NCBI GenBank assembly: GCA_032622095.1
Contig: CP136069.1
Span: 80,870,958 to 80,934,957, forward strand
DNA: 64,000 nucleotides
Direction of reading: 5' to 3'
Origin: Siphonodentalium dalli
Taxonomy: Eukaryota > Mollusca > Scaphopoda > Gadilida > Siphonodentaliidae
Part shown: positions 9,901 to 59,489 of the stretch, one piece after another
How the letters are laid out: the number at the start of each line of letters is the position of its first letter
Numbering within the stretch: the stretch's first letter is position 1
The notes under the pieces: model-generated
The model's input: the letters and a program-made list of their open reading frames with translations, nothing else
The model's database searches: none
What the model was told of the DNA's origin: nothing
Position numbers and translations under genes: made by a program

Positions 9901-10340
9901 AAACGCCCATGCGCCCACTGTATACCAAGAAACAGCGAAACATTATATAAGCGGAGCGCGGAATAAATAAAGCACACCTTACTTTAAAACTAAGGGTAAG
10001 TGAAACGTGGGTCTTACAGGCAAACAATACAACTCGGTAGCAGTTGCATTGGAGACCAGTCCCCACTATTCATGCTAATAGTTATTGTTTGAATCAATGT
10101 GAATTGATGACCTCTGTTTGAACGGTGATTGAATAAATGACTTTGGTTTGCCAATTTATCTGGGAACAGCTATGTGATCCACCTCCACCGCCACTCAGCC
10201 ACCGTCCTGTAAAAAACTGTAACTGGATTATTTGGTCTTTGTGTTTTCTCTCTTATAAAATTAGTCTCTAATTTCTAACAAATAAATTTGGAGAAGCGGC
10301 TGCTCCCAATTCCCTATATTGGTCCTTGATTGTCCCCCGA
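6919..10340. other. Long stretch without recognised gene
   Basis: Mostly AT-rich unique-looking sequence. Open frames are short (up to ~125 codons), lack recognisable motifs and show no paired splice signals I would trust. A short run resembling CCCTTAAA repeats lies near 6967-6995. A possible core promoter is listed separately at 9561. Confidence 0.5.
9561..9615 (+). promoter_or_regulatory. Possible TATA-type core promoter
   Basis: TATAAAAGGG at 9561-9570 is a strong TATA-box match, and TCAGTC, an initiator-like hexamer, lies at 9610-9615. The spacing (about 50 bp) is longer than the usual 25-30 bp, so a start nearer 9590 is equally possible. No downstream coding exon was recognised. It could belong to an old LTR or an unseen gene. 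Confidence 0.22.
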
Positions 10341-11140
10341 AAAATTTCGGAGGACTATTATGATCAGCATGTCCGTCCGTCCATGTGGCCGTGCGTTCGT
10401 CCATCCGAGGTTGTCCGTCTGATAACTTGAGCAAGCCCCAGCACAATTTCTTGATATTTGGTAAGTGGTTTACATTCGAGAAGACGCAGCCAAGTTCTTA
10501 TTTTGGTCACGGTTCGGTGATTTTTGTCGGAGTTATGCCCCTTTTTCGACTTTGAAATTGATATTTTCGCGTTGTCCGCATGGTAACTTGAGCAATATTG
10601 AACATAATTTCACGATGTATGGTACGTGGTTCTCATTTGAGAATACGCTGACCAATGTTCGATTTTGGTCATGGTTAGATTAATTTTGACAGAGTGATGC
10701 CTCTTTTCGACTTATAAATAGCTGTTTTCGGGTTGTCCCCATGATAACTTGAAAAAATATTCAACAGAATTTCTTGATATTTGAGAAGGCGCACGTTAAA
10801 TTCGAATGTGGTCACGGTCCGATGACTTAGAAATCTCTGTTTTCGGGTTGTCCGCATGGCAGCTTGATCAATATTGAATATCATTTCTTCATACATGTAG
10901 TTGGTATGTGGTTCACATTTGAGAAGATGCAGATCAAGTTTAATTTTAGGACAAGGCCGCTTTTTTGACGGAGTTATGCCGCTTGTTCGACTTAGAAATC
11001 GCTGTCTTCAGGTTGTCCGAATAGACCAATATTGAACAAACATTCTTATATTTGGTACGTGGTTCACATTTGAGAACACGCAGGACAAGTTTGATTTCTT
11101 TGTTCTTAAAAATGCCAACGTTCCAAAACCCCATCGATCC
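10341..11140. repeat. Hairpin-headed element with internal 161 bp tandem repeats
   Basis: The block opens with a C/G hairpin (CCCCCGAAAAATTTCGGAGG), then GTCCGTCCGTCC. Tandem units follow, each carrying GGTTGTCCGCATGATAACTTG and AGCAATATTGAACA. The TTGTCC anchor falls at 10411, 10572, 10733, 10848 and 11013, giving spacings of 161, 161, 115 (one shortened unit) and 165 bp. A G-rich GGGGGAAGTGGGG near 11141 may be the far border. Open frames in it are repeat by-products. The same architecture recurs at 57425-58063. Confidence 0.7.
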
Positions 11141-12720
11141 GGGGGAAGTGGGGATCTGCGAACTTTTATAATAATAATGGTAAATAAACATTATGTATAA
11201 TCCATAAAGGTGCCTTCTCTGATTTTGTGGTGAAAAGTATCGGGGCACGTGCACGCGGCATAGAAGTGACAAATAATTTGGCGCCTCGTTGATTTCTGGA
11301 GTGATTGGCTATTTGGCATGGGTCGTAATAGCGAACCTTCGGAATAATGAACCTTCGGAACAGAGAACCCTACCCGATTGGCATCCATAAACGGAAGAGC
11401 AATAAGTACATGCATGTGTACATGTCCATCAAAATCATTTGTCTTAAGTTTCTTGAGATATACTCAAATTAGGCAATTGAATGTCTACTCATTCGCGTTC
11501 AAGTATTAGGCCAACAAAATGATTCTCTGCTTCCACTAACAAGGGTGGAACAATTAGCCTAATGTAGATATATGTATGTAAACAATTGTGAAAACCAATT
11601 TTTCAGTTTTCTGGAATATTGAGCTATAGAACTCGACCGGTGTGGCAATGATGTGTTGCAAAGAAGTATTTCCGTGACCTCTTAAGGTGAAAATATACAT
11701 TCTGATCTAATAGAGGATCACCCTCTATTATATCAACATTTCAAATTATTTTTTTTTCTATATAAAATGAACTCAGTGACCTGCTTGGCGGTCACACACT
11801 GATCATTCTGATAGTTCGGACAACACGCCCATATTGTCTACTGCGAAATCACTTCGGAATTATTTTTTGTTAACATAGGAAAGGAGTGGCGACTTCAAAT
11901 CAAATATGCAAGTGATTTGGGGAGATTAACATTTTATATGTTGATAAAATAAAGTTTCTACTCGACATTGTAATTTTAGGAATCCGTTCATCAGAATTAT
12001 TGTAGTATTATTATGCCGGTCTATGGACAAGCTATGTATACTGGACATTCCGAAACTAGACGGTCGAGCCCGAAGAGCGAGACCATTTAGTTTCCGATTA
12101 ATGCCTAGTCGCGAGTTCATTAACCGACTTAAAACACGGTTTTATTATATATAAGGATAAATTACATTTATGCAGATGAACAATTCCGACAAATATCGAT
12201 AACTAAGACATTTACGAATGTTTTTCTATAAAAATTAGTCCCTGCATGATATGGCTGACAAAACCAGGCCCAATGACATGGGACATGCGAGTGGAAATTG
12301 CGTGTGGCCTTTGCCATGAACACAATTGGCAAAATACCACGCGGTACAACTTTGTTCAAATAAACATCGACGTACGCAAAATATTTGTTTTGATCTGATC
12401 ATAGCGTAGAATATATACGTAATATATACTGCCGACGCAATTGTATCTGTATTTTGGTCACGTTGCATATACATATAAGATGACTTGATTCATATTGTCA
12501 GGATATATTGTGCCAAGAAGAACAACAGTAACTCCATGCAATGAGTAACTGCTGACGTTAGGTTTCAATGTCATATAGACGCCATGGCATGCAAACGAGC
12601 TGAACGCCTTCGCTGGCGAGTAATTTAAATACGTGGGGGTTATTACGCAATCTATATGTGTATTCTGTGGAGGCATTTTTTACTTCTCATAGAAGCTATG
12701 GTCAATAAGCAAAATATGAT
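11141..12720. other. No gene recognised
   Basis: AT-rich sequence with only short open frames and no motifs I can support on either strand. Confidence 0.5.
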
Positions 12721-12722
12721 TC

Positions 12723-12892
12723 ACACATACACACCCTCACCCTCCCTCACACACACACACACACACACCCTATCACACACACACACCCTCACACACACAC
12801 CCACCCTCCCTCTCACACACACACACTCACACACGCTCACACCCCTCTCACACACACACACCCTCACACACACACACACACACACACACCAT

Positions 12893-14662: not shown

Positions 14663-14681
14663 AAGTTTTATAGATATAAAG

Positions 14682-14712
<31 letters not shown>

Positions 14713-14723
14713 GTATATATAGA

Positions 14724-15550
14724 GATATACGATTTCGTTAGCCGAGGGCGAACCGCGATCGCGAGCAACGAGCGCGATCACATATCGCGAGCATTACAGA
14801 GAACACCGTTACAGATAAGCCAATTGTGAGCTCATAGAAGAGGAGAAATCCAGTTTTGTTGATTTGCTGTTCACAGGAGGTCTTGATCAAACAATAGATG
14901 AAAATAAAACTTCCCTGGTGTTGGAAGAAAGAACGAGTGCGAATCTTAAAGCATTAGTTTCGTCGATTCGTGATGTGGAGTGGAGTAGTCCGGTTTTGGT
15001 TGACTTTAATTTCACCGTGGTGCTCACCAGCAAACACATGCAACTAAAAGTTAACTGATGTTGGAAGTTAGAACAAGGGCGCATCTTATTTGTATTGCAC
15101 TGGTTTCGCCAAATCGTGATGGCTCAAATCATCAGATTTCGAACTGGATGTAGCCATATTGTTACACGAAGATGTCCATTGTCCAGCTATACAACACACT
15201 AGTGTGTCCCTTAATGGAGCATTCACATTGTATAATTGGCTCAAATTAATATACCAGTAATAGGTTTCACAGAGTTTTCCATGACCCATATCACCATATC
15301 ACAATCGAGAATCGAGAATGTGGTCAATTTCTGACATAAGGATCAACAGAATCTAACTTTAACACTTATTTGTTTTAATTAATGGCGTCTCCGGACTGCA
15401 AAATGGAATCAATTGAATATTGCCATCGTATGTTGGCAAAGATCGTGATGACCCATATATATCACCCGATATCCAACTGGGAGCGGTCACTTTATTACAC
15501 AATGATCTCCAGTGTCCAAATTCAACAAATAATTGTATCAATTAAGTGCG
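14724..15550 (+). repeat. Left subterminal arm of the large inverted element
   Basis: Non-satellite part of the left arm. Landmarks are GGTGTTGGAAGAAAGAAC at 14916, CCGGTTTTGGTTGA near 14989 and AACTGATGTTGGAAGTTAG near 15052. Each is found as reverse complement in 25330-26100. The short open frames are shared with the other arm in mirror form and are not supported as genes. Confidence 0.7.
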
Positions 15551-18500
15551 CATCGCCACAGTAAAATTGGCCCATATGACTATCTATAACCATCATAGTT
15601 TGACCTATCACGATATTCACAAGTTCGGGATGACCCATATAACCAATATTTCGAACTACGTGTGGTCCTTTTATTACACAACGATCAATGTAGTCCAACT
15701 TTAAGGCAGACTTTCTCAATTAAGGGCGTATCCGCACTGTAGAATTGGCCCAAATGACTATAACCATCATATTTTGACCTATCACGATATTCACAAGTTC
15801 GGGATGACCCATATAACCAGTATTTCGAACTGCGTGTGGTCCTTTTATTACACAACGATCAATGTAGTCCATCTTCAAACTATGACTGTGACAATTAAGG
15901 GCGTATCCGCACTGTAGAATTGGCCCAAATGACTATAACCATCTTATTTTGACCTATCACGATATTCACAAGTTCGGGATGACCCATATAACCAGTATTT
16001 CGAACTGCGTGTGGTCCTTTTATTACTCAACGGTCAATGTAGTCCAACTTCAACCCATGATGTTGACAATTAAGGGCGTATCCGCACTGTGAAATTGGAA
16101 TAAATGACTATAACCATAATATTTTGACCTATCACGGTAGTCACAAGTTCGGGATGACCCATATCAACAGTATTTCGAACTGCGTGTGATCATTTTATTA
16201 CACAACGATCAATGTAGTCCAACATTAAGCCATGACTTTCTCAATTAAGGGCGTATCCGCACTGTAGAATTGGCCCAAATGACTATAACCATCTTACTTT
16301 GACCTATCACGATATTCACAAGTTCGGGATGACCCATATAACCAGTATTTCGAACTGCGTGTGGTCCTTTTATTACACAACGATCAATGTAGTCCAACTT
16401 CAACCCATGATTTTGACAATTAAGGGCGTATCCGCACTGTGAAATTGGAATAAATGACTATAACCAGAATATTTTGACCTATCACGGTAGTCACAAGTTC
16501 GGGATGACCCATATCAACAATATTTCGAAATGCGTGTGGTCCTTTTATTACTCAACGGTCAATGTAGTCCAACTTCAACCCATGATGTTGACAATGCAGG
16601 GCGTATCCGCACTGTGAAATTGGAATAAATGACTATAACAATAATATTTTGACCTATCACGATATTCACAAGTTCGGGATGACCCATATCAACAGTATTT
16701 CGAACTGCGTGTGGTCCTTTTATTACACATCGATCAATGTAGTCCAACTTTAAGCCATGACTTTCTCAATAAAGGGCGTATCCGCACTGTAGAATTGGCC
16801 CAAATGACTATAACCAAATTTATTTTGACCTATCGCGATATTCACAAGTTCGGGATGACCCATATAACCAGTATTTCGAACTGCGTGTGGTCCTTTCATT
16901 ACACAACGGTCAATGTGGTCCAACTTCAACACATGATTTTGACAATTAAGGGCGTATCCGCACTGTGAAATTGGAATAAATGTCTATAACCAGAATAGTT
17001 TGACCTATCACGATATTCACAAGTTCGGGATGACCCATATCAACAGTATTTCGAACTGCGTGTGGTCCTTTTATTACACATCGATCAATGTAGTCCAACT
17101 TTAAGCCATGACGTTATCCATTAAGGGCGTATCCGCACTGTAGAATTGGCCCAAATGACTATAACCATCTTATGTTGACCTATCACGATATTCACAAGTT
17201 CGGGATGACCCATATAACCAGTATTTCGAACTGCGTGTGGTCCTTTTATTACACAACGGTCAATGTAGTCCAACTTCAACCCATGATGTTGACAATTAAG
17301 GCCGTGTCCGCACTGTGAAATTGAAATAAATGACAATAACCATAATATTTTGACCTATCACGGTAGTCACAAGTTCGGGATGACCCATATCAACAGTATT
17401 TCGAACTGCGTGTGGTCCTTTTATTATACAACGATCAATGTAGTCCAACTTTAAGCCATGACTTTCTCAATTAAGGGCGTATCCGCACTGTAGCATTGAC
17501 CCAAATGACTATAACCATCTTATTTTGACCTATCACGATATTCACAAGTTCGGGATGACCCATATAACCAGTATTTCGAACTACGTGTGGTCCTTTTATT
17601 ACACAACGGTCAATGTAGTCCAACTTCAACCCATGATTTTGACAATGCAGGGCGTATCCGCACTGTGAAATTGGAATAAATGTCTATAACAATAATATTT
17701 TGACCTATCACGATATTCACAATTTCGGGATGACCCATATCAACAGTATTTCGAACTGCGTGTGGTCCTTTTATTATACATCGATCAATGTAGTCCAACT
17801 TTAAGCCATGACTTTCTCAATTAAGGGCGTATCCGCACTGTAGAATTGGCCCAAATGACTATAACCATCTTATTTTGACCTATCACGATATTCACAAGTT
17901 CGGGATGACCCATATATCCAGTATTTCGAACTGCGTGTGGTCCTTTTATTACACAGCGGTCAATGTAGTCCAACTTCAACCCATGATGTTGACAATTAAT
18001 GCCGTATCCGCACTGTGATATTGAAATAAATGACTATAACCATAATATTTTGACCTATCACGGTAGTCACAAGTTCGGGATGACCCATATCAACAGTATT
18101 TCGAACTGCCTGTGGTCCTTTTATTACACATCGATCAATGTAGTCCAACTTTAAGCCATAACTTTCTCAATTAAGGGCGTATCCGCACTGTAGAATTGGC
18201 CCAAATGACTATAACCATCTTATTTTGACCTATCACGATATTCACAAGTTCGGGATGACCCATATAACCAGTATTTTGAACTGCGTGTGGTCCTTTTATT
18301 ACACAACGGTCAATGTAGTCCAACTTCAACCCATGATGTTGACAATTAAGGCCGTGTCCGCACTGTAAAATTGAAATAAATGACAATAACCATAATATTT
18401 TGACCTATCACGGTAGTCACAAGTTCGGGATGACCCATATCAACAGTATTCCGAACTGCGTGTGGTCCTTTGATTACACATCGATCAATGTAGTCCAACT

Positions 18501-20024
18501 CTAAGACATGACTTTCTCAATTAAGGGCGTATCCGCACTGTAGAATTGGCCCAAATGACTATAACCATCTTATTTTGACCTATCACGATATTCACAAGTT
18601 CGGGATGACCCATATATCCAGTATTTCGAACTGCGTGTGGTCCTTTTATTACACAACGGTCAATGTAGTCCAACTTCAACCCATGATGTTGACAATTAAG
18701 GGCGTATCCCCACTGTGAAATTGGAATAAATGACTATAACCATAATATTTTGACCTATCACGGTAGTCACAAGTTCGGGATGACCCATATCAACATTATT
18801 TCAAACTGCGTGTGATCCTTTTATTATACAACGATCAATGTAGTTCAACTTCAAGCCATGACTTTCTCAATTAAGGGCGTATCCGCACTGTAGCATTGGC
18901 CCAAATGACTATAACCATCTTATTTTGACCTATCACGATATTCACAAGTTCGGGATGACCCATATAACCAGTATTTCGAACTGCGTGTGGTCCTTTTATT
19001 ACACAACGGTCAATGTAGTCCAACTTCAACCCATGAATTTGACAATGCAGGGCGTATCCGCACTGTGAAATTGGAATAAATGTCTATAACAATAATATTT
19101 TGACCTATCACGATATTCACAATTTCGGGATGACCCATATCAACAGTATTTCGAACTGCGTGTGGTCCTTTTATTATACAACGATCAATGTAGTCCAACT
19201 TTAAGCCATGACTTTCTAAATTAAGGGCGAATCCGCACTGTAGAATTGACCCAAATGACTATAACCATCTTATTTTGACCTATCACGATATTCTCATAAG
19301 ATGACCCATACAACCACTATTTCGAACTACGTGTGGTACTTTTATTACACCACTGTCATTGTAGTCCATCTTTCACCCATGTATTTGTCAATTAAGGGCG
19401 TATCTGCACTGTAGAATTGGTTCAATTGACTATAGCTATCATATTTCGACCTATCAAGATATTCACAAGTTCGGGATGACCCATATAACCAATATTTCGA
19501 ACTGCGTGTGGTCCTTTTATTACACAACGGTCAATGTAGTCCAACTTCAATCCATATATTTGTCAATTAAGGGCGTATCCGCACTGTGAAATTTTCGAAA
19601 TGACTATAACCATAATATTTTGACCTATCAAGATATTCACAAGTTCGGGATGACCCATATAACCAATATTTCGAACTGCGTGTGGTCCTTTTATTACACC
19701 ATTGTCAATGTAGTCCATCTTTCACCCATGGATTTGTCAATTAAGGGCGTATCCGCACAGTAGAATTGGTTCAAATGACTATAAGTATCATATTTCGATA
19801 TATGACGGTATCCACAAGTTCGGGATGACCCACATAACCAATATTTCGATCTGCGTGTGGTCTTTTTGTTACACAACGGTCAACTTCAATCCATATATTT
19901 GTCAATTAAGGGCGCTTCCGCACTGTGAAATTTGTCCAAATGATTATAACCATAATATTTTGACCTATCACGATATTCACAAGTTCTGGACGACCCATGT
20001 AACCTCTATTTCGAATTGCGTGTG
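15551..20024 (+). repeat. 175 bp satellite array, forward arm, mostly A-B dimers
   Basis: The anchor GCGTATCCGCACTGT recurs at 15726, 15901, 16076, 16251 and 16426, exactly 175 bp apart, and stays in phase to about 19050, giving about 25 copies in all. Two subtypes alternate. Subtype A has TAGAATTGGCCCAAATGAC with CATATAACCAGTATTTCG. Subtype B has TGAAATTGGAATAAATGAC with CATATCAACAGTATTTCG. The higher-order unit is therefore 350 bp over much of the array, with local irregularities (A-A near 15726, hybrid B/A near 16426). From about 19226 inward the units become the variants typical of the other arm. No coding function; recurring ~60-codon frames are satellite by-products. Confidence 0.93.
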
Positions 20025-23000
20025 TAATAAAATGACCACACGCAGTTCGAAATATTGGTTATATGGGTCATTTCGAACTTGTGAATATATTGATAGGTCG
20101 AAATATGATAGTTATAGTCAATTGAACCAATTCTACAGTGCGGATACTCCCTTAATTGACAAATCCATGGGTGAAAGATGGACTACATTGACAATGGTGT
20201 AATAAAGTACCACACGCAGTTCGAAATTGTGGTTGTATGGGTCATCCCGATCTTGTGAATATCGTGATAGGTCAAAATATTATGGTTATAGTCATTTGGA
20301 AAATTTCACAGTGCGGATACGCCCTTAATTGACAAATATATGGATTGACGTTGGACTACATTGACCGTTGTGTAATAAAAGGACCACACGCAGTTCGAAA
20401 TATTGGTTATATGGGTCATCCCGAACTTGTGAACATCGAGATAGATCGAAATATGATAGTTATAGTCATTTGAAACAATTATACAGTGCCGATACGCCCT
20501 TAATTGACAAATCCATGGGTGAAAGATGGACTACATTGACAGTTGTGTAATAAAAGGACCACACGCAGTTCGAAATATTGGTTATATGGGTCATCCCGAA
20601 CTTGTGAATATCTTGATAGGTCGAAATATGATAGCTATAGTCATTTGAACAATTCTACAGTGCGGATACGCCCTTAATTGAAAATGCATGGGTGAAAGAT
20701 GGACTAAATTGACAGTGGTGTAATAAAATTACCACACGCAGTTCGAAATAGTGGTTGTATGGGTCATCCCGAACTTGTGAATATCGTGATAGACTGATAG
20801 GTCAAAATATTATGGCTATAGTCATTTGGAAAATTTCACAGTGCGGATACGCCCTTAATTGACAAATATATGGATTGAAGTTGGACTACATTGACCGTTG
20901 TGTAATAAAAAGACCACACGCAGTTCGAAATATCGGTTATATGGGTCATCCGGAACTTGTGAATACCGTGATATATGGAAATCTGATACTTATAGTAATT
21001 TGAACCAATTCTACAGTGCGGTTACGCCCTTAATTGACAAATTCATGGGTTGATGATGGACTACATTGACAGTTGTGTAATAAAAGGACCACACGCAGTT
21101 CGAAATATTGGTTATATGGGTCATCCTGAACTTGTGAATATCTTGATAGGTCGAAATATAATAGTTATAGTCAATTGAACCAATTCTACAGTGCGGATAC
21201 GCCCTTAATTGACAAATCCCGAACTTGTGAATATCGTGATAGGTCAAACTATTATGGTTATAGTCATTTGGAAAATTCACAGTGCGGATACGCCCTTAAT
21301 TGACAAATATATGGATTGAAGTTGGACTACATTGACCGTTGTGTAATAAAAGGACCACACGCAGTTCGAAATATTGATTATATGGGTCATCCCGAACTTG
21401 TGAACATCGTGATAGATCGAAATATGATAGTTATAGTCATTTGAACCAATTCTACAGTGCGGATACGTCCTTAATTGACAAATCCATGGATTGATGATGG
21501 ACTACATTGACCGTTGTGTAATAAAACGCAGTTCGAAATATTGGTTATATGGGTCATCCCGAACTTGTGAATATCTTGATAGGTCGAAATATGATAGTTA
21601 TAATCAATTGAACCAATTCTACAGTGCGGATACGCCCTTAATTGACAAATCCATGGGTGAAAGATGACTACATTGACAGTGGTGTAATAAAAGTACCACA
21701 CGCAGTTCGAAATAGTGGTTGTATGGGTCATCCCGAACTTGTGAATATCGTGATAGGTCAAAATATTATGGTTATAGTCATTTGGAAAATTTCACAGTGT
21801 AGATACGCCCTTAATTGACAAATATATGGATTGAAGTTGGACTACATTGACCGTTGTGTAATAAAAAGACCACACGCAGATCGAAATATTGGTTATATGG
21901 GTCATCCCGAACTTGTGAATACCGCGATATATGGAACTATGATACTTATAGTCATTTGAACCAATTCTACAGTGCGGATACGCCCTTAATTGACAAATTC
22001 ATGGGTTGATGATGGACTACATTGACAGTTGTGTAATAAAAGGACCACACGCAGTTCGAAATATTGGTTATATGGATCATCCTGAACTTGTGAATATCTT
22101 GATAGGTCGAAATATGATAGTTATAGTCAATTGAACCAATTCTACAGTGCGGATACGCCCTTAATTGACAAATCCATGGGTGAAAGATGGACTACATTGA
22201 CAGTGGTGTAATAAAAGTACCACACGCAGTTCGAAATAGTGGTTGTATGGGTCATCCCGAACTTGTGAATATCGTGATAGGTCAAAATATTATGGTTATA
22301 GTCATTTGGAAAATTTCACAGTGCGGATACGCCCTTAATTGACAAATATATGGATTGAAGTTGGACTACATTGACCGTTGTGTAATAAAAGGACCACACG
22401 CAGTTCGAAATATTGATTATATGGGTCATCCCGAACTTGTGAACATCGTGATAGATCGAAATATGATAGTTTTACTCATTTGAACCAATTCTACAGTGCG
22501 GATACGCCCTTAATTGACAAATCCATGGATTGATGATGGACTACATTGACAGTTGTGTAATAAAAGGACCACACGCACTTCGAAATATTGGTTATATGGG
22601 TCATCCCGAACTTGTGAATATCTTGATAGGTCGTAATATGATAGTTATAGTCATTTGAACCAATTCTACAGTGCGGATACGCCCTTAATTGACAAATCCA
22701 TGAGTGAAAGATGGACTAAATTGACAGTGTTGTAATAAAAGTACCACACGCAGTTCGAAATAGAGGTTATATGGGTCGTCCAGAACTTGTGAATATCGTG
22801 ATAGGTCAAAATATTATGGTTATAGTCATTTGGAAAATTTCACAGTGCGGATACGCTCTTAATTGACAAATATATGGATTGAAGTTGGACTATATTGACC
22901 GTTGTGTAATAAAAGGACCACACGCAGTTCGAAATATTGGTTATATGGGTCATACCGAACTTGTGAATATCTTGATAGGTCGAAATATGATAGTTATAGT

Positions 23001-25130
23001 CATTTGAACCAATTCTACAGTGCGGATACGCCCTTAATTGACAAATTCATGGGTTGATGATGGACTACATTGACAGTGGTGTAATAAAAGTACCACACGC
23101 AGTTCGAAATAGTGGTTGTATGGGTCATCCCGAACTTGTGAATATCTTGTTAGGTCAAAATATTATGGTTATAGTCATTTGGAAAATTTCACAGTGCAGA
23201 TACGCCCTTAATTGACAAATATATGGATTGAAGTTCGACTACATTGACCGTTGTGTAATAAAAGGACCACACGCAGTTCGAAATATTGGTTATATGGGTC
23301 ATCCCCAACTTGTGAACATCGTGATAGATCGAAATATGATTTTTATGAGAAAGAACGCATAGGCACAGGGAAAATCTTTTAACCTAAGTTTGTTTGTGTC
23401 TGGAGTTTCGCATCCAGATTTGGATTTTGTTTTGATGTCGGAATGTTCCGATGTGTATTGAATTAATGTCCCATATTGTTTGTTGAGATACAAATTAATT
23501 TGCTTGAAATGGATGAGCCGAGTGGCTTTGTTTTGGGTATGCAGGCAATGGTCCCGCGTTGAGCAGATTAAATTGTTTTAGTGGTACATGGTCGCTAATC
23601 AGCCGATATTTGAGGAAGCGATGAATGAACTAACTTATCCCGAATACTAGGATTTTTCTTGTATGCAATTATTGCCCGTGAATCCGACAGTTCGGCGTGC
23701 TCGTCGGCGAATGACTTGAACTCATCTTTGAGAATTCCAGCCACTTCTACGTTATGTCTGTTGTATACCAGTGGGTAACACACGAAGGTTTTGGGTGTCC
23801 CATAACCCGCTAATTGGTTAATACCTGTAGGCCATAGGGTCTGAAGTTCCCCTATCCAACATCCCTCCCTTTCTTTCCGGTGGATAGTTGTTTCTTCCAC
23901 AGATTCCGTCACAGTGGTTTGTTCAATAGGTTGGAAACTAAAGTGTAGTCTGACACTGTGACCGTCTACATTAAAGTGCTGTGCAACAAATGTGTCATCC
24001 CGAACTTGTGAATATCTTGATAGGTCGAAATATGATAGTTATAGTCATTTGAACCAATTCTACAGTGCGGATACGCCCTTAATTGGAAATCCATGGGTGA
24101 AAGATGGATTACATTGACAGTTGTGTAATAAAAGTACCACACGCAGTTCGAAATAGTGGTTATATGGGTCATCCCGAACTTGTGAATATCGTGATAGGTC
24201 AAAATATTATGGTTATAGTCATTTGGGCAAATTTCACAGTGCGGATACGCCCTTAATTGACAAATATATGGATTGAAGTTGGACTACATTGACCGTTGTG
24301 TAATAAAAGGACCACACGCAGTTCGAAATATTGGTTATATGGGTCATCCCGAACTTGTGAATATCGTGATAGATCGAAATGTGATAGTTATAGTCATTTG
24401 AACCAACTCTACAGTGCGGATACGCCCTTAATTGACAAATTCATGGTTTGGTGAAGGACTACATTGAGAGTAGTGTAATAAAAGTACCACACGCAGTTCG
24501 AAATAGTGGTTATATGGGTCGTCCCGAACTTGTTAATATCGTGAGAGGTCAAATTATGATGGTTATAGTCATTTGGGCCAATTTCACAGTGCGGATACGC
24601 CCTTAATTGACAAAGTCATGGGTTTAAGTTGGACTACATTGACCTTTGTGTAATAAAAGGACCACACGCAGTTCGATTGAGTGGTTATTTGGGTCATTCC
24701 GAACTTGTGAATGTCGTGGTAGGCCAAACTATGATGGTTATAGTCATTTCAGCCCATTCTACAGTTCGGATACGCCCTTAATTGACAAAGTCATTGCTTG
24801 AAGATTGATTACATTGACCACACGCATTGACCACACGCAGTTCGACATTCTGGTTATATGGGTCATCCCGAACTTGTGAATATCGTGGTAGGCCAAAATA
24901 TTATGGTTATAGTCATTTCGGCCCATTATACAGTGCGGATACGCCCTTAATTGACAAAATCGTGTGTCAAAGATGGACTACATTGGCCACTGTGTAATGA
25001 AAGGACCACACGCAGTTCGAAATACTGGCGATATGTGTCATCTCGGACTTGTGAATATCGTGATAGGTTAATATGTGATGGTTATACTCATTTGGGCCCA
25101 TTTTCTGTGACGATATACGCCCTTAATTGA
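20025..25130 (-). repeat. 175 bp satellite array, inverted arm, C-D subtypes
   Basis: After 20024 the units read as reverse complement (TACAGTGCGGATACGCCCTT, CACACGCAGTTCGAAATA). Two subtypes alternate, one with CCATGGGTGAAAGATGG and TGAACCAATTCTACAG, the other with TATATGGATTGAAGTTGG and GGAAAATTTCACAG. These differ from the A/B pair of the left array. About 25 copies remain after removing the insertion at 23341-23990. Units near 25000-25250 decay. A shortened junction unit lies near 21200. Confidence 0.92.
23341..23990 (-). pseudogene. Penelope-like element fragment inserted in the satellite
   Basis: The satellite is interrupted by about 650 bp of unrelated sequence. On the minus strand it encodes a 105-codon frame (23912-23595), preceded in frame by VAQHFNVDGHS. 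Motifs are REGCWIGELQTLWPTGIN, then YPLVYNRHN and IIAYKKNPSIRDKLVHSSLP. HFN..GHS and WI..L.T..P.GIN resemble the end of the GIY-YIG region of Penelope-like retroelements. AYKKNPSIRDKLVHSSLP resembles the linker that normally precedes that domain. The catalytic RT core is absent. The order of the two parts suggests an internal rearrangement. Non-functional fragment. Confidence 0.6.
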
Positions 25131-25330
25131 TATAATTATTTATTGTTGTTGAACATTGGGCATCCTTGTGTAATAAAGTGACCACTGCCAGTTTGACATC
25201 GGTGATATGGGTCATCACGAGCTTTGACAACATATTTTACAATCCGGATACGCCATTGATTAAAACAAATATATATTAAAGTTAGACACCGGCGATACTT
25301 ATGTAAGAAATTGATAACATTGAGTTCGAT

Positions 25331-26206
25331 TGTGATATGGGTCATGGAAAACTATATGAAATTCTTTACTGGTATAGTAATTTGAATCAATTGTACAATG
25401 TGAATACTGCTTTAATGGACACACTATTGCGTTGTATAGCTGGCCAATGGACATCTTCGTGTAACAATATGGCTACATGCAGTTTTAAATCTGATTATTT
25501 GAGCCATAACGAATTGGCAAAACCAATGTAATACAAATAAGATGCTCACTTGTTTTAACTTCCAACATCAGTTAACGTTTAGTTTCATGTGTTTGTTGGT
25601 CAGCACCTTCACGGGTGAAATTAAAACCAACCAAAACCGGACTACTCTGCTCCATATCCACCACGAATCGACGAAACTAATGCTTTGGGATTCGCATTCG
25701 TTCTATCTTCCAACACCAGTGAAGTTTTATTTTCATCTATTATCTGATATTGTAGGTAGCAGATTAACCAACCCGGATCTCACCTCTTCTATGAGCCGAT
25801 TATTTGAGCCATCACGAATTGGCAAAACCAATGTAATACAAATAAGATGCTCACTTCTTTTAACTTCCAACATCAGTTAACTTTTAGTTTCATGTGTTAG
25901 TTGGTCAGCACCATGCACGGGTGGAATTCAAATCAACCAAAACCGGACTACTCCGCTCCATATCCACCACAAATCGACGAAAATAATGCTTTAGGTTTCG
26001 CACTTGTTCTATCTTCCAACACCAGTGAAGTTGTGTTTTAATCTATTATATGATCCTGTGAGCTGCAAATTAACCAAACCGGATCTCACCTCTTCTATTG
26101 GCCCACATTTGGCTTATTTGTAACGATGTTCTCGGTAATGCTCGCGATGTATGATCGCGCTCGCGTCTCGCGCTCGCGGCTCGCCCTCTGCTAACGGAAT
26201 CGTATA

Positions 26207-26208
<2 letters not shown>
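25331..26208 (-). repeat. Right subterminal arm with 306 bp tandem duplication
   Basis: Reverse-complement counterpart of 14724-15300. Relative to the left arm it carries an extra tandem copy: AAATAAGATGCTCACTTGTT at about 25536 recurs near 25842 (about 306 bp later), and both copies include CAACATCAGTTAAC and CAAAACCGGACTACTC. The outer copy is more diverged. No coding function seen. Confidence 0.72.
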
Positions 26209-26237
<29 letters not shown>

Positions 26238-26541
26238 TTATTATATTTGACCAAACATTTCGAACGTGTAGCATGCGTACTACACAAATTTATCCCACCA
26301 ACACAATCTGCTGGATTTTTCAAATTACCGTCATGAGAAGTTAATATAAATCAAATACAACTTATCTTACTGAGAACAAATATGATTATCAACTTGCCGA
26401 TAGTAAGAGAAACATAATTGTGCAAAAGTTCATTAAACCGAAAGGAAAGGTACTTAAATTTAGTTTTGTATGCACGAATTTAAACCCCGAAACTGTAACG
26501 CAAGGTGAATTCAACCGAATGTTCCCACGTCGAAAGTTAAC
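26209..26541. other. CT/AT microsatellite then no feature
   Basis: (CT)n and (AT)n from about 26208 to 26235 border the large element. The remainder is AT-rich without recognised features. Confidence 0.5.
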
Positions 26542-26548
26542 GCTATTC

Positions 26549-28271
26549 CAGGGGGGGGGGGGGCGATTTTTGTTTTACGAGACATGAGGTGTGGGGGGGG
26601 GGGTACCCGAGGCCGGAAACAGTTTTTGACCACTTTTTTAGCATTTTTTTTTCATTGACATATTTCAACTGTTTATATTTGTTTATATGTTTTGGCTTGT
26701 TGCAATATGAGAAGCAGTAATACATTCAATATTGTTATAATTACCCCCATAAGTTGGTAAAAAATGAAAAAATAGTGAATATTGTGGGGGTGGGTCCCAA
26801 AATTTTCATTGATTTTTTTTTGCGCGCAATTTTTTTTTATTGTGTCTGTTTCAGCTTCTTGGCAGTTTTTATATTGAAAATTGTCTAGTTCAGGGTGTAG
26901 TTCAATAAAAAAAAATACTTCAGATAGCTCTAGGGTAGGGTGAACTTAATGCAGTCTGACAATATCAGCTAACAACTCATGACAGAATATTACAATAATT
27001 CTTATACTTCATGACAGTCTCTTTACTCATGACAGTCGCTTTACTCATACAGTTAGTTGATGCATGAGTGTAATGTATGAAATAAGTATTTGTATCAGTG
27101 TTTGTATACTAAAATTGATTATTCTCATAATGTATCAGAATAATTCAAATTTTCCCGCGTTTCCTGGCATTAGTGGGAAAATTATGTATTCACAGTTCGG
27201 GCATATAGAGTTGTTTATTATAGGCGGAGCCTATTTCGAATTGGAGCCAATGAGAATGAGATTTGTGGTAATTGTTCAGATCGCTAGAGCGGAGAATTCG
27301 TCATTCTAGCCGTGTAACTTCACTGAGACCACAGCTAGCGCGGCTCAGTTGCAAATGAGTGTTTGTTTGAAATATGAGAGAATTGGGAATACTGTATAGT
27401 TAATAATATATAGTAGACACACACAGGTAGACATATAATAGTAAATCAAGAGTACAGCCGGTATACTGTAAACAGAAGACCAAATTGGAGTTATCTTCCC
27501 TACACCAACACAATGACGTTACGCTTACTGTGACCTCGTCTCCACGGTCACATGTCACTAAAGTACACATCCATGTATATGGATTTGGCACTAAATTGAC
27601 CATCCGCGTTCAAACTCAAAAAGTTAAACATTATTTTAGGCCTAGTCCTAAGTCGTAATGCGAGGTCGGCATACATAAAAGCTAATTCGTACACTGGTTC
27701 ATATGCACATTTTCCTTTTTGGTATTACTATAGGCCTACTAGTTGATGCTGGTTGATGTCTGAAAAAAAAAAGATAAATTTAATTTTGTGTAATTTTTCA
27801 TTCTATTAATATAGGCCTAACACTGGCCCTAGTTATTTTTTGTTGTCATTCCAGGGGATTCAACATATTGTTCATCTACTCACACAGATGAATAGGCTGG
27901 GTTATAAATTTACCAATATAATCACATCATATTCTACCTTTGTTGATTGCTTAGAGTTCAATTTAGTTGAGATTATCGCTGATTAATGCTGATTATCGCA
28001 TAATTATCAGCCAAGAAAATATTTGTCTTGCACATGTTTGTAAACAGGAAGTAACAATTTAATTTGGTCTTTCAAAGAATGGACCAATATAGAGCGGTTG
28101 TTCGTTTTTACAGACGGGACCAACATAAAGCTTTGAGGTTTTGGGGTGGGTGTCTAAAATTTTATGAAAAAAAAATGCAAGAAAGGGTGGGTGGGTGTAA
28201 AAAAAATGGCAATGTAAAAAAACACCCCCACGTCTCGCAACACTTTTACGCCCCCCCCCCCCCCCCCCCTG
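26549..28271. mobile_element. hAT-like non-autonomous element with G-tract termini
   Basis: The left end CAGGGGGGG begins at 26549 and the right end CCCCCCCTG finishes at 28271. Each is directly flanked by GCTATTC (26542-26548 and 28272-28278), a 7 bp or slightly decayed 8 bp target duplication. Subterminal sequences also pair in inverted orientation (ACGAGACATGAGG near 26578 against CACGTCTCG near 28230). A CAGGG terminus and a ~8 bp duplication suggest hAT. No transposase frame was found. The interior is AT-rich, with a short repeat TTTACTCATGACAGTC near 27022. Confidence 0.55.
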
Positions 28272-28278
28272 GCTATTC

Positions 28279-30054
28279 CTGTGAAAAATGTATTCACTGT
28301 AACTTTTGATCTTCATTTGGACACGCATTAGTAAATTGGTGGATACAATTCCGTATATATTTTCTCGAGATTGCGACCATGCACTGTCCATTGCATTTTT
28401 CCTGCAAGTTTGGTATTATATAGTGTGCTGAATTAGCACGATACTATATACAATTATAGTAGTGGGTTAAATTTAGCACAACACTATACCAATAGAGGAC
28501 ACAGCTCTCGATCAAGCAGAATCGGGCGCCATTTCCTGGTTAGGTGTGAAATATTGATTATAATAATTGTTTTATTAACCATTCAGTTCTCTTTGTTTGA
28601 TATATCCTATACATGCATATATGTATTGATAGTGGATTGAATATGCCAATGTCTATTATTATTTGTTTATTAACCTCAAGTAATGAAGAGCATACACAAC
28701 TTATAATTATTGTGGTACAGGCACTGTGTCGCCTGCACACACAAACTAGACAAATATATATGTCCTATACATGCAGATATGTATTGATATTGGATTGAAT
28801 ATGCCAATGTCTATGAAGTCATATATATAGTAACGTGAACAAATTCTGACTCCTTATCGAAATGACATAAATAGGATATGTCGATTTTGGTCTATATTTG
28901 GAATGGCCAGATAAAATTTTCCAGATCAAGTTTTAAAATCGGTCTCGATATTCGCGTCTTTAGTTTTGTTATTTCACATTTTTAAATCGCATTTTGGAAA
29001 CAAAGACTGACTATGGCGGGATTCGCCCAGAGTGCTTTGAACTCGGATTCTATTTTTGTTTAGAACAAATTACTGGACCCTGATTTTTCCCTAGGAATTC
29101 ACTCTTTAAATATTCGTCATATGTCATACCTATACTATATGCACTGGCGAATGGAGAAATTATTAATTAATTATTAACAAAACATAACGACCACATTATG
29201 GGGGGAATGACTGCCAAGTGTCAGCTGAACAAACAAGTTATACGGTTCTTGGACATTCGGTGTGAAGCTTGAAGTCGGATGTTGATGAGCATTTGGCGTT
29301 GGGCAAAGGAAATAAATTCGCGATTTAGTTTATTTTCACGAAAATTTCTTCGACAGGGACATGATACCTATAAGATTTCCGCGCGAATTTCGTCAATATA
29401 CATGGGCCCTCTTTTAAATGTGAACATTTCACTTCATAGATATTACCATTGCATTTAGAATCTATAATCCTTCAAATAGACGGAAACAGTTTCATTATAT
29501 AATTTGCCAATATAGAGGCATTTATCTGAATGTCTGTTTGAATGTTTTTCATAGTGAAAACATTTTCTACACTACTTTCGCAGAAAATGTATAGGGTAGA
29601 GATCAAACTAGTGGACGAATGTGAACATGCAGCAGAGAAATCTTTTTGGGGTATTTCAGCTTCACAGGTAATGCCGCTTTGGGCAAACAGAACGGATGGT
29701 CATGGTCCCATAATTATGCATGTCGAATGACAGTTTCGTGAAACATTACTAAGTCGCGAAAGTCCAACATCTATCGTCGAACTAAATTCACACCGACGTC
29801 CACAAACGTCAAAATAACTTCATATGTTAGTGTATAAATAATGCCAGATAGTTACACGAAACGACAATTCCACCAACAGTATCCAAAGTTCATGTTTGGG
29901 GCTAAAATAACGAATATTTAATGTTACTTTGGGGATAGGCAACAAAAGCTAAATATATAGGATATGTTGTACAAAGGAAAGGACTCATAGTTTCTTAAAG
30001 GTTCTGAAACTCTAAAAATAAGACTTAGTAGTGAAATAATGATCTAGGTCATAC
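28279..30054. other. Intron/intergenic sequence downstream of the UNC-93-like exon
   Basis: No exon could be recognised on the minus strand that would continue the UNC-93-like protein, so the next exon is distant or missed. A 56 bp direct repeat is present: CCTATACATGCATATATGTA at about 28605 and the matching block at about 28765, both followed by TGGATTGAATATGCCAATG. Confidence 0.5.
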
Positions 30055-30055
30055 C
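30049..30055 (-). promoter_or_regulatory. Splice donor ending the UNC-93-like exon
   Basis: On the minus strand the reading frame passes ATCAGAATTGACCAAG then GTATGACC. GTATGA is an acceptable donor, and the frame stops immediately afterwards at TGA. The encoded break falls after TELTK-like residues (ISELTK), where family members continue into the next transmembrane segment. The exon therefore ends in phase 0 at 30055. Confidence 0.65.
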
Positions 30056-32475
30056 TTGGTCAATTCTGATATCCAGAATGCGTTTTGTATCGTTGCAAAA
30101 GTCATCACTGGAATCATAGACAAAAACCATGGATCTTTAAGTGTCATTAGGGAATCTTTCAATTGTTGGCTCATTCCTTGAAATGTCACATGATCAGAGT
30201 CCCCAGTATGAAGCTTCTCTAAAAAGAACGCCAGCAGAAGAATGGCAGCAACACAACAAGCGGCATAGAAACCGAACAAGGGGAACTTAACCTCATCACT
30301 GATGTCAACCGAGTCGTGGCTGATCTCATAAGAATTGCAATAGTTGGATCCGCACATACTGAAATGTGACAGCGGGATTTCTTCTCTATGGACAGCTTCA
30401 GAAGTTGTAGTCGCGAGATACGAGCCTACTGGTGTCATACCAAAACTGGAAGCGGACCGATTTGCATGGTATAATGAATCAACAGTGCCATGCGTGTCGT
30501 GTTTTGTGTTGAGCACGACAACCGATGTCACTATGTTCCCCACAACATAAGCCATCCTGAAGAACAGTATGAATACTCCGAAATAATGGCCACTGACATG
30601 CTCAATAGACTTATTTATTTGTGCAGCTCTAACTGTAGAAATGTTCGCCACATATACGCATGCTCCATTCCAGAGAATTGCAAAACCGATACCTGTGAAA
30701 ATGGACGTTGGAAGTAAAATGTATGGTAGTGGGTATAAATTGCTCAGAAGATACAGAAAATGCACTATGAACCCAACGAGGATGCATACCTTGGGTTTGA
30801 ATCTCCTGATGATCACGGGACACATAAAGCTAACCGATGTCCACCCAAGAAAATATAGCGATAAGCTAATTAGACCTAAGCCTCCTTCGTGGTTCAAGCT
30901 GGTTTGCATACTGATCACAGCACCTATTGCAGTGAAGAAAAGGAGATGACTGAACCCCAAAACGAGCAGATTCTTCAAACAGCTACCCTGGATCAAGGAA
31001 GAGTTTTTTGAAGATTCGTCGCATTTGTCGATTAGATCATAATCTGTATTGTCGTGGTAGCAAGATGAGTCTGGTGATACGGCAATGAGTCCGCTTCCAA
31101 AAATTGATGATCCAAAACAGGTGCTGAGAGACGTGTGATGTCTGGGTACGTGCCTTTCGTTGTTACTCAATCCGATAGTAGTCAAGGATAAAAACGAGTG
31201 GTACGAATTGTACAAAACATTCCGAAATGTACTCGGTGTGCTCACGTGATCAACCACAGACAGAACATCATCCTCTTCACAGTTCTCCTGGTGGTCATCT
31301 TTTAGATCAAGTACTCGTTGTTGCGCGTCGAGACCACTCGCCTCCAATATCGTGCGGCAACGAGAATGCTCGCCTTGCTTTTGATTTGGAAATATATCCG
31401 TTTTGGGAAGAAGGGGTTCATTGCAGTTGTGTTTGATCTGCTCCGCTTCATTAATAAAGTGGACGTGTAACAACCCCAATTCATTGTTCTTTTGAAAGTC
31501 TGCATAATGATTATTATTACTACTCTCGGCTAGCCCAACGTTTTCCGCATCCCCAATAGTTGACGTGGTTACGCCATTGTCTGGTATAGCAGATACACAC
31601 GGAAATGCATTACATTCAAAATCTAGTTTCTCTTGAGAAATTGAAAAAAGGTCTTCGTAAGTCGGCTGAACTATTTCGGATCTTCCTTCTGTGGGTTTCT
31701 GTATATTCTCGTCTCGTCGGTAAAGTTGGATTGAGGCCGCTTTCGAAAATACATCGGTCTTACATGAATATATTTTAAAATCAGCATCATGGTCATTTTC
31801 CATCGATGTATTTTTCGTCATCGGCAAAAGACTAAGCGAGTAATCATCCGTGGTTTGAAAATGCTTGAGATCGTCTTCATTGGGTAACTTTTCCGTGTTC
31901 ACTGATTGTGAATCCAGTTGTGTTATTTCTCTGTCTGAATAAACGTCGTCGAACTGTCCATCAGGAAATTTTTTGTCTGTGATTTCATAACGGTTTACTG
32001 TCGAGTAGTCATCACCACAATAACCTCTTGCATCAACATCATCATAAACGGTTTCGTTTTCAGTTTTAAATACCTGCAATTCTGTATTCGAACTGAAGTA
32101 CGCTCCTTCTTGATGAACAATGCACTCATCATTTGCACTCGATTGCAGTTTCATGGTGTCGTTCAGCGATGATAATTCTCTATTAGCAAGAATAACTGCA
32201 CGGACTGAATCCCTGAATAAATATCCATCGGAGTACGTATGTACCCGGACGCCCTCGCGTGGTTCACTTGTGGCTGTGCCAGTAATCCCACATGGTAACA
32301 GAGGTGTCGTGTCAGTGTCAATATACTCGCTTTGTTCGATGGTGGCGCTCCCTTGTGCTTCCCGAATGAATATATCAAATTGTGCAAGACAAGCACTGGT
32401 GTTAAGTGTTTCACTCAATGTTAGATCGACCCTGCCCTTGACACCATCAGATGACAGGCCTGTGAACTCAACCAT
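30055..32475 (-). CDS. UNC-93-like major facilitator protein, large 5' coding exon
   Basis: Encodes about 807 residues before a splice donor. CAAG|GTATGA (exon end at 30055) gives a stop only if read through, so the protein continues in an unseen exon. Residues about 1-500 are soluble, acidic and Ser/Thr/Asp-rich. Residues 505-525, 535-555, 565-585, 588-610, 632-657 and 733-753 are membrane segments, and a seventh begins near 785. MQTSLNHEGGLGLISLSLYF followed by SFMCPVIIRRFKPK is the UNC-93 family signature. UNC-93 proteins are 12-TM MFS-fold regulators (a K+-channel subunit in worm; UNC93B1 chaperones Toll-like receptors); the role here is unknown. The start chosen is ATG at 32475. A GTG two codons earlier follows an in-frame TGA. 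Loop 657-732 holds many potential N-glycosylation sites. Confidence 0.85.
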
Positions 32476-33445
32476 TCGCACTCACTATGTATATTCGTCT
32501 GCGCCATTGTGGTAATTGTAGCAGCTGTAGGATAACCTGTGAAATAAAGAAAATATGGGTCGTGTTTATAGCAAGGCGTGTAAGCATGTACTCAGCATTT
32601 GCCTATTACTTTCTTCCGATTTTCCAATATTTTCGCATATTTCGACGGTGGGACCTTTGCACAAACGACATTTTTTTACAATAAATTATCACATGTGCTA
32701 GCAAATCATATTTTCTCAATATCTAGGTTGATGGCTAAAGGTATATATATCCAACAAAATTGGCCATTACATGAATATAATTGTGCAAAGATACTCCTCA
32801 TTTAGTTGGCAAAGTGATTCCATCGGAGGATAAAAAGTGATCTTGGGAAGGCCATAAAAACAGTCAAAATTGTGGACTGAAATGGTCATCAGTTGGAAAT
32901 TTTCCAACATTATTTGTTGTCAGATTGAAAATTCCAACACTTGGAAAGCTCGAGGTCAGTCTATCTATAGGATTATGTTATTTTCATGCTCAGATTTCAA
33001 AATGTTCGCACACAGGGCAGAACCACGTAGCCTTGTCACTCTCACGTGGCCGTGTGAATTTGACTGCAGTTGGACGACTAAATATTAGTAGTTAAGCCAT
33101 TTTTCATGATCAGGTACCAAAAAAACTCTCATACTGGTCAGAAACATGGTCGGCCCATGCAGTGGATTATGTACCTCTCTCGGGCTAGTGACACTACCGA
33201 TATATATAGGCTACCATCCAAAATAAAAAAAATAAAGGGTGGGGGTGTGCAAAATAAAACTTCGGTCTGGTTTAAGGGGGCGGTGCGGTTGGAAATTCCA
33301 AGGTGCCTCCAACGGAGAACCTATAGCCATGTCCCTGCATTATCGGGTATATGTCGAGATACTTCCCAATCTGAGACATAACGATTCGATTTTGTGGCAG
33401 TTAATTTCAGTTAATAACTTAATATGAGTTATTCTCGAAGTTCAA
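32476..33445. other. Upstream region of the UNC-93-like gene, no exon recognised
   Basis: AT-rich. Contains a non-canonical acceptor-like TATACATAG just before the exon on the minus strand, so an upstream non-coding exon is possible. No TATA-type promoter clearly placed. Confidence 0.4.
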
Positions 33446-33545
33446 CACACACCCTCAAACACCCTCAAACACACACACACACACGCACCCTCACACACAC
33501 TCACACCCTCACACACACACACACACACACACCCCCACACACCCT
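33446..33545. repeat. (CA)n / ACCCTC microsatellite
   Basis: CA repeats interrupted by ACCCTC and AAACACCCTC blocks, of the same composition as the tract at 12723. Confidence 0.93.
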
Positions 33546-33659
33546 GATTTCCCAAAATATATAATAGATGTATAAGGTGGGGAAAGCATTAGTTGGCGTG
33601 TTTGGGAAATGGTAAATAGAAAGGGGTCATTATAGTGATGCATTACATTTTATAATAAA

Positions 33660-41416: not shown

Positions 41417-41549
41417 ATGTGTTATATACACAATGTGTTTGTAACGATTCATGTATCGCGACTCGGGCTAGTTTTCGTGTCCATGGCCACGAAAACTTGC
41501 CTCGTCGCGATACATGAATCGTTACAAACACATTGTGTATATAACACAT
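41417..41549. repeat. Perfect 46 bp-arm palindrome, 133 bp
   Basis: The 46 bases 41417-41462 (starting ATGTGTTATATACACAATG, ending TCGCGAC) recur exactly as reverse complement at 41504-41549. The 41 bp centre contains a second hairpin, GTTTTCGTG...CACGAAAAC. Intron-located. Absence of arm divergence implies recent origin or arm-to-arm correction. Confidence 0.9.
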
Positions 41550-55609: not shown

Positions 55610-55689
55610 CCCGATATTTCCAACTCATTAGCATACTGCAAACCACCGAATATATACGGGGAAATTACATACTCAGCCAATAGCCTTTC

Positions 55690-57420: not shown

Positions 57421-57424
57421 ATTA

Positions 57425-58063: not shown

Positions 58064-58064
58064 G

Positions 58065-59414: not shown

Positions 59415-59489
59415 GAAAGGCTATTTGGCTGAGTATGTAATTTCCCCGTATATATTCGGTGGTTTGCAGTATGCTAATGAGTTGGAAAT

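Follow-up and report, generated by a model that had tools for sequence, protein, structure and literature searches.

A foldback element with mirrored satellite arrays, its sister families and a putative satellite-targeting retroelement in Siphonodentalium dalli

The stretch analyzed here, hereafter the window, comprises 64,000 nucleotides from the scaphopod Siphonodentalium dalli (C9:80870958-80934957 in a searched genome of 2,226,750,531 bases in 9 contigs), and the feature under study is a structure at 14724-26208, which is confirmed to be a foldback element, that is, one built as a long inverted repeat. It is very probably a non-autonomous foldback transposon of a family designated E, in which a short terminus and its CG-rich zone, a flanking domain, and a satellite array of 175-bp monomers make up the terminal inverted repeat (TIR); the same degree of confidence covers the explanation as a whole, including a retroelement that targets the satellite. 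Mobile elements thus appear to build and carry satellite DNA here, as well as to invade it.

The terminus (GATATACGATT.CGTTAGC / GATATACGATTNCGTTAGC) has two matches in the window, at 14724 (+) and 26208 (-), where 0.04 would be expected. From these ends inward, the two arms align through the terminus, the CG-rich zone, the flanking domain, and the edge of the satellite, with identities of 106/124 for the terminus plus CG-rich zone, 194/215 and 185/213 for the left flanking domain against its two right-hand copies, and 140/158, 109/128, and 146/172 for the three edge monomers. Although the edge monomers of both arms are ~64-76% like the core satellite, the nearest relative of each is its mirror partner (tree support 1.000, 0.998, and 0.838), and the arms are thus homologous. 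The left array (15538-20024) holds 25.7 monomers of 175 bp and the right array (20021-25130) 25.6 (6.8 + 12.2 + 6.6), the latter being broken by a 650-bp insert without satellite sequence (23341-23990). The satellite flips its orientation at 20021-20024, and (TA)n surrounds both ends of the element.

A first-pass annotation of the window had described one coherent structure of termini, CG-rich zones, arms, and opposed arrays within AT-rich microsatellite borders, with ~25 monomers per arm, and the arm alignment and the monomer counts bear this out. The mirror symmetry that it drew over ~5.7 kb stands in part: it is close only in the termini, the flanking domain, and the three outermost monomers, whereas the inner arrays differ in sub-type, the left being mostly A/B dimers to 19289 followed by C, D, C, D (19290-19974) and the right mostly C/D. 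The two sides of the center are identical at 124/156 positions over 175 bp and at 586/673 over 700 bp. In the right arm, the flanking domain is present twice in tandem, as 300-bp copies with 273/300 positions identical; the 650-bp insert was absent from that annotation. The parts of the element are as follows.

14673..14723, no strand: (TA)n/(GA)n microsatellite at the left end, read directly; a similar context occurs at most E, F, and G ends read
14724..14742, +: left terminus GATATACGATTTCGTTAGC, from pattern searches of the window and the genome
14743..14800, +: left CG-rich subterminal zone, from the arm alignment; 59% GC in 14735-14800
14811..15103, +: left non-satellite flanking domain, subfamily L, from the arm alignment and a tree
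15104..15614, +: divergent edge monomers e1-e3, each with a mirror partner in the right arm, from a tree
15615..19289, +: 21 satellite monomers, mostly 350-bp A/B dimers, from array detection and monomer typing
19290..20024, +: four C/D-type monomers and a partial one reaching the center, from monomer typing
20021..20024, no strand: center of the element with the orientation flip, a 4-bp overlap (TGTG) where both arrays meet
20025..23340, -: right inner array, C/D types, from monomer typing
23341..23990, -: putative 3' fragment of a Penelope-like retroelement, with its 3' end at 23341 on a fixed monomer site, from locus comparison
23990..25056, -: right outer array, three C/D monomers and then three slightly nearer A/B, from monomer typing
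25057..25522, -: right edge monomers e3-e1, from a tree and monomer typing
25493..26098, -: right flanking domain, subfamily R, tandemly duplicated (25493-25792 and 25798-26098, 91%)
26122..26189, -: right CG-rich subterminal zone, from the arm alignment
26190..26208, -: right terminus GATATACGATTCCGTTAGC, from a pattern search
26209..26240, no strand: (CT)n(TA)n microsatellite at the right end, read directly

The placement of three right-arm monomers near A/B is weak because the A/B states look ancestral.

The annotation had made the identity of the element depend on a second locus with the same termini. Such loci exist: the terminus with the CG-rich zone matches 30 genome places (29 of 29 candidates scored) and the terminus with part of the flanking domain 58, several per locus (40 of 48 candidates scored), and paired termini with opposed arrays recur elsewhere. 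Twelve E loci, from the focal copy (E1) to E12, were read wholly or in part, E7-E12 over 10 kb each. Both arms were recovered in six of the 12 and both termini in four (E1, E2, E3, and E5); both satellite orientations occur in eight, and the other four show one orientation within the stretch read. Array lengths, which the annotation had proposed to compare across copies, differ widely, from ~1 monomer (E8) to ~27 (left arm of E1, by BLAST coverage). E1 and E2 have their flanks in common, window 6903-12799 and 27017-33566 being 97.6% and 96.8% identical to C2 at ~87.2 Mb. On one side, this match continues to the limit of the C2 stretch that was retrieved, and on the other, it ends 261 bp short. 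The two loci, window 6903-33566 and C2:87188801-87217000, thus belong to a segmental duplication that encloses the satellite element and shows ~97% identity along this stretch at least. Their inner composition has diverged: of typed monomers, E1 contains 24 + and 25 -, together with a single piece of the retroelement, whereas E2 contains 14 and 16, together with three pieces. Arrays thus change in place.

The arms of one copy are not always closest to each other. Arm-to-arm identity in the flanking domain is 99% in E4, 95% in E5, 92% in E6, 90% in E3, and 87% in E1, and in a flanking-domain tree, the left arm of E1 groups with E2.L, E3.L, and E11 in subfamily L (0.991), and the right arm with E2.R, E4, E8, E9, and E10 in subfamily R (0.998). 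The split grouping and the low arm identity together mark E1 and E3 as mixed-arm copies. It is reasonably probable that the focal copy is a recombinant of two foldback copies from different subfamilies, whose arms never moved together, a reading that agrees with the abrupt switch of satellite type near 19290 and has a parallel in the chimeric copies of this sort described for Galileo in the accessible part of PMC3573991. On the other side, the A-D monomer types do not follow subfamilies elsewhere (A/B vs C/D does not track L/R in the other copies), and unlike arms may move together, E3 being likewise mixed. The focal copy is not a model member of the transposon family, given that its arms come from two subfamilies and that contig C2 holds a duplicate of its locus.

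Several smaller observations were made on family E. A short E element at C5:1997001-2000100 (L031) carries 4.5 satellite monomers and, near its terminus, 32 copies of an 11-bp repeat. Solo E-like terminus fragments of ~40 bp lie in (TA)n/AT-rich DNA at L032:8422, L033:516, and L034:8495, and are possibly remnants of excision or deletion. Nested retroelements include a BEL/Pao type with Peptidase_A17 and integrase domains in E7 (L019), one with endonuclease and reverse transcriptase in E8 (L020), and one with reverse transcriptase in E6 (L017).

The same plan is found with other sequences. At ≤2 mismatches, the terminus pattern occurs at 166 genome places, against 30 for a reversed control; among the 100 places listed, 62 represent a second family, F, with the terminus GATGTACGATT[CA]TGTTAGC. 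With a limit of 60 kb, these listed F termini form 23 convergent pairs, of which 22 span 2.6-45 kb and the remaining one 143 bp, as compared with a mean of 0.04 and at most 1 under random placement. Both orientations of satellite are present in F1, F3, F4, and F5, and the plan is partly present in F2 (2.6 kb). F4 (9.0 kb) has opposed arrays of a 361-bp satellite, with 13.6 and 9.0 monomers, and arms that are 97.6% identical, and the arms of F3 are 99.0% identical. A 21-bp motif of the F satellite has 2,905 genome matches (control 0); among the first 100 listed, all exact, on C1, and tallied by hand, paired F termini enclose 99, the exception being located 6 kb away from a lone terminus, and + precedes - in all three elements listed whole. 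In one of the large F elements (14-45 kb), at C1:189381487-189420112, 39 + are followed by 37 - listed motif matches, and the + span of 18.0 kb amounts to ~50 monomers; the ~25 monomers per arm that the annotation regarded as unusual are therefore not extreme. Its proposal that such an element could move or seed satellite arrays gains support from these loci and from the confinement of the listed F motif matches, and we infer that E, F, and G elements have transposed. The F flanking domain and the F satellite have in common a 110-bp stretch at ~72-75%. One large F element was read here. The 143-bp terminus pair, at C3:32793237-32793379, is by its spacing a miniature element almost empty between its ends.

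A third family, G, at C1:34.93 Mb, has outer arms that are 98.4% identical over 1.89 kb and a terminus, GATAGACAACTCTGTGTGGCGCG, preceded by (TA)n. Inside, a 172-bp satellite is followed by the same 175-bp satellite as in E, with 21 + and then 8 - listed motif matches; no relation between the 172-bp repeat and the 175-bp satellite was detectable, their alignment scoring 35 where shuffles scored as high as 44. Genome-wide, 4,350 places match the 175-bp motif (control 0), of which 100 were listed. Family G also forms the left end of a cluster at C4:138.02 Mb (L057).

No two of the 10 independent copies measured have the same monomer phases flanking the flip, the values being 50/66 in E1, 118/127 in E3, 101/175 in E4, 83/34 in E5, 171/127 and 75/36 in E6, 21/58 in E7, 112/161 in E10, 202/13 in F4, 117/278 in F1, and 1/48 in F3. 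At the junctions, the two sides overlap by at most 4 bases or are separated by fillers of at most 11, and the junction of E2 is the same as that of E1, as expected for one insertion. Where the terminus of an E or F copy could be read, it mostly stands beside (TA)n(GA)n, and F5 and G ends likewise adjoin (TA)n. A preference for (TA)n is the simplest reading, and alternatively, the microsatellite may have grown out of the element's own ends. The copies have what marks foldback-type TIR transposons: long terminal inverted repeats at both ends, tandem repeats inside them (175-bp; 361-bp; 172- plus 175-bp), and the same ends at several unrelated sites, with E1 and E2 counted once.

The 650-bp insert represents the 3' end of a longer element, which is present in eight of the 12 E loci with 5' parts of varying length, and a further 3' end lies 0.3 kb past the stretch read of E7. 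The insert's own 147-aa frame has no Pfam match, and its NCBIfam matches are below cut-offs; its identity came from longer copies. The longest retroelement frame scanned (568 aa, L013:6643-8346) has matches to RVT_1 (7e-09) and GIY-YIG (5.1e-07), and the same order, reverse transcriptase and then GIY-YIG in one frame, is found in a frame of 464 aa (L015:7072-8463). As in Penelope-like elements, the copies are truncated at the 5' side with a constant 3' end and form head-to-tail tandems. By domain order and behavior, the insert is thus classified as a putative Penelope-like retroelement. A search of solved structures with the retroelement sequence gave no reverse transcriptase match, and no Rfam match to a hammerhead in the pseudo-long terminal repeat (pseudo-LTR) was found in the loci searched, which lack the head sequence.

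In the copies examined, the retroelement has the orientation of the satellite. All 10 E-copy insertions with a 3' end join the same monomer nucleotide, with a 5' side that varies, and the target monomers are of several types (ATCATATTT, ATAATATTT, and ATCTTATTT), which speaks for independent insertions. Across the genome, the 3'-terminal 19-mer has 134 places at ≤1 mismatch (control 0), and a 31-mer made of the 19-mer, AAA, and ATMATATTT has 135 at ≤3 mismatches (control 0), the two sets being compared as totals only. At the satellite, the 3' end joins ATMATATTT or a one-base variant in a single orientation. Flanks were read for 51 ends, 11 from the window and the larger loci and 40 short ones hand-picked non-randomly to spread over clusters, loci L001-L008 being left out; 35 are satellite, 16 are the head of another copy (ATCATATTTGGCTCGTGCC), and none lies elsewhere. 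That ATCATATTTGGCTCGTGCC is the head is deduced from its position in clusters. The satellite flanks are at phase 153 in 34 of 35 cases by script, and the remaining one, a type-A monomer, was placed by eye (alignment score 85, ATCTTATTT). Among same-strand neighbor distances, 20 of 60 are 4.78-4.91 kb, and 20 of the 100 listed 3' ends lie within 120 kb of a match to the E terminus or flanking domain. At least one other retroelement cluster starts with a G end. In the six listed clusters with both strands, + always comes before -, three times in succession in the C5 cluster, and such clusters may be further, larger mirrored elements.

It should be noted that a number of points weigh against a satellite-bearing transposon entered by a site-specific retroelement. 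As for the transposon, E1 and E2 are, because of their common flanks, one insertion on a segmental duplication rather than two independent ones. No target duplication or empty site is readable at the element ends, since ends within (TA)n make a duplication unreadable; the left flank of E3 is without (TA)n, and that of E11 has only a short tract. No transposase was recognized: frames of ≥130 aa were listed in 16 regions, and 18 chosen proteins (9 + 9) scanned against Pfam gave only retroelement domains and weak matches, with most large F elements unread. In addition, a one-orientation array at C1:141.684-141.702 Mb, with 44 listed motif matches, all +, indicates that the 175-bp satellite is not confined to mirrored elements. 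As for the retroelement, a script found direct repeats of 4-47 bp in six of 10 insertions, two of them of only 4 and 6 bp; by eye, E12 has one of ~32 bp with a one-base gap, and no direct repeat was found at E2a, E3a, and E11a among the 10 examined. In tandem repeats, a target duplication is in any case indistinguishable from array phase. A count by the 19-mer at ≤1 mismatch would let older, diverged insertions elsewhere escape. Just outside E10 and outside the satellite, L022:9142-9981 holds a 280-aa GIY-YIG frame, related to the retroelement in protein and not close to the insert in DNA, which implies that relatives of the retroelement may use other sites. This frame and the Tribolium precedent considered below weigh slightly against the explanation.

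In Tribolium, satellite arrays switch orientation, and the resulting mirrored arrays measure from a few kb to tens of kb, head-to-head ones reaching up to 75 kb beside one-orientation arrays, and the part of the report available names no transposon ends; its authors state that such symmetries had been documented only in Tribolium until then (PMC13081366). By analogy, opposed arrays could be a property of chromosomal satellite, a macro-dyad symmetry, with the shared ends as incidental border repeats, and the one-orientation array of the 175-bp satellite agrees with this. The idea is nonetheless very unlikely here: the same inverted terminus bounds both ends of a unit (22 F pairs), the arms are near-identical beyond the satellite, and the units are single and dispersed with differing center junctions, whereas the inversion sites of Tribolium are highly conserved within megabase-sized, putatively pericentromeric regions (PMC13081366). 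There is equally little to be said for a Penelope-like origin of the whole structure, in which inverted tandem insertions were laid down and pseudo-LTRs became the satellite arms. Such elements are described as forming tandem and inverted copies in the accessible portions of PMC3846280 and PMC11167929, and the frequency of the 3' part among E loci, together with the further end near E7, would suit this origin. The 3' part is, however, without a match in F1-F4 and in the parts of E6, E8, and E10 that were read, and the retroelement interrupts arrays at one site rather than bounding them, the element ends being set by other sequences.

Large palindromes are known trouble spots for genome assembly, and the focal locus does sit on a segmental duplication, which might suggest that the structure is not mobile and came about when a segment with satellite was duplicated locally in inverted orientation, or when the assembly folded back on itself. 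An artificial fold-back would give near-identical arms, whereas the arms here differ by 10-15% and the sides of the center are not mirror copies; with the terminus and opposed arrays shared by other loci, this account has hardly any probability left. Least probable of all is a Helitron/Helentron-type element (HINE) with central satellite repeats, since the oyster elements, which carry satellite-like arrays of up to 89 monomers, are known from the accessible text as rolling-circle types with a single central array between unlike ends and a 3' palindrome (PMC7492417, PMC8268682), whereas the ends here are symmetric long inverted repeats and the arrays opposed.

The foldback transposon reading can be compared with described systems, for which the cited papers are used within their accessible parts. 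Tandem repeats in foldback arms are known already, and the closest case is Tetris of Drosophila virilis with its TIR-220 satellite, which even seeded a satellite (PMC4079207). In Tetris, too, the long inverted repeats combine an outer flanking domain with tandem repeats, there of ~220 bp, and the element does not appear to code for protein. Its array lengths vary by copy, and the same repeats occur in longer arrays (up to 66 copies). It differs in its TIRs of up to 1.7 kb, its inner and middle domains, and its 8-10 bp target duplications; here, the arrays are head-to-head with no constant middle domain of the Tetris type in the copies read, pairs span up to 45 kb, ends are mostly in (TA)n, and there are three families. 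Galileo, of the P superfamily in Drosophila, resembles these elements in its long, internally repetitive inverted repeats, the independent expansion of each arm, and chimeric copies of two subfamilies, and differs in TIRs of ≤~1.26 kb with up to three ~210-bp repeats, 7-bp target duplications, and a known transposase sequence (PMC3573991). As for the retroelement, Poseidon, a Penelope-like element of Anolis, similarly combines a reverse transcriptase with a C-terminal GIY-YIG endonuclease and forms head-to-tail copies (PMC11167929); the difference is that the 3' junction here is fixed at one satellite-monomer nucleotide or another copy's head in 51/51 flanks. In a literature search of mainly openly accessible papers, no transposon was found to contain mirrored satellite arms as large as these, and no retroelement to be fixed to one satellite nucleotide.

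Other candidates and features are recorded here for completeness. A derivation of the E CG-rich zone and flanking domain from a satellite monomer failed against shuffles. The satellite monomer as a hammerhead retrozyme has no Rfam support, all matches being below the gathering score and most on palindrome centers or simple repeats. The exact satellite and terminus patterns were not found in viral contigs, nor the satellite pattern in prokaryote genomes; a distant DNA search of plasmids and phages returned no result for the focal element, and six satellite strings looked for in literature text had no match. Elsewhere in the window, a palindromic element at 5714-6676, with arms 94% identical, the terminus CACAGGTCCCC, and the 8-bp direct repeat TTCGTACT flanking it, resembles a small TIR transposon that has duplicated its target site. 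A large inverted-repeat element at 48342-53445 has arms of ~2.2 kb, 88.5% identical, and the terminus GGGACATAGTCCGGGAGC. Another inverted repeat, at 55505-59492, has arms 97% identical, open frames made up in part of tandem repeats of 90 bp and 147 bp, a spacer with 173-bp repeats, and an exact 108-bp inverted copy (55505-55612 / 58065-58172). Short hairpin-like inverted repeats are located at 62820-63026, 35277-35574, 41417-41549, and 60087-60820, and a frame at 30049-32481 has an UNC-93 domain, a sign of animal DNA.

The following mechanism is proposed. A transposase acting in trans would recognize the termini and move the element into (TA)n tracts by cut-and-paste, and between moves, the arrays would lengthen and shorten in place through unequal exchange. 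The palindrome center would be repeatedly cut and rejoined by end joining, as each independent copy measured has its own center junction. In this manner, satellite would be generated and dispersed as transposon arms. The endonuclease of the retroelement would then cut the fixed satellite site, and the cut end would prime reverse transcription, with the shared ATCATATTT, also found at the start of the retroelement, serving as primer homology; its presence at both the satellite site and the head would let the same rule yield head-to-tail tandems. In vitro, the Anolis Penelope-like element shows AT-rich cleavage near the junction of its own open reading frame (ORF) and pseudo-LTR (pLTR) and internal initiation of reverse transcription, which, as far as the available part of the paper goes, fits target-primed reverse transcription as proposed here for the satellite site (PMC11167929).

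The origin and spread of satellite DNA are a long-standing question. There is a marginally better than even chance that, in this genome, some satellite DNA is the body of transposons rather than a chromosomal component, with foldback families that build, carry, and seed arrays of up to ~50 monomers per arm and a Penelope-like retroelement specialized on one satellite, homing to one monomer nucleotide by pairing its 9-base head with the target. Copies with one to dozens of monomers exist at many loci, and one insertion exists twice, which makes the growth, shrinkage, and invasion of arrays measurable in place. To our knowledge, and within the accessible part of PMC11167929, site choice in the Penelope/GIY-YIG class is little understood. 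If the account is true, the retroelement would be a natural site-specific Penelope/GIY-YIG reverse transcriptase with a defined target, simple to test in vitro.

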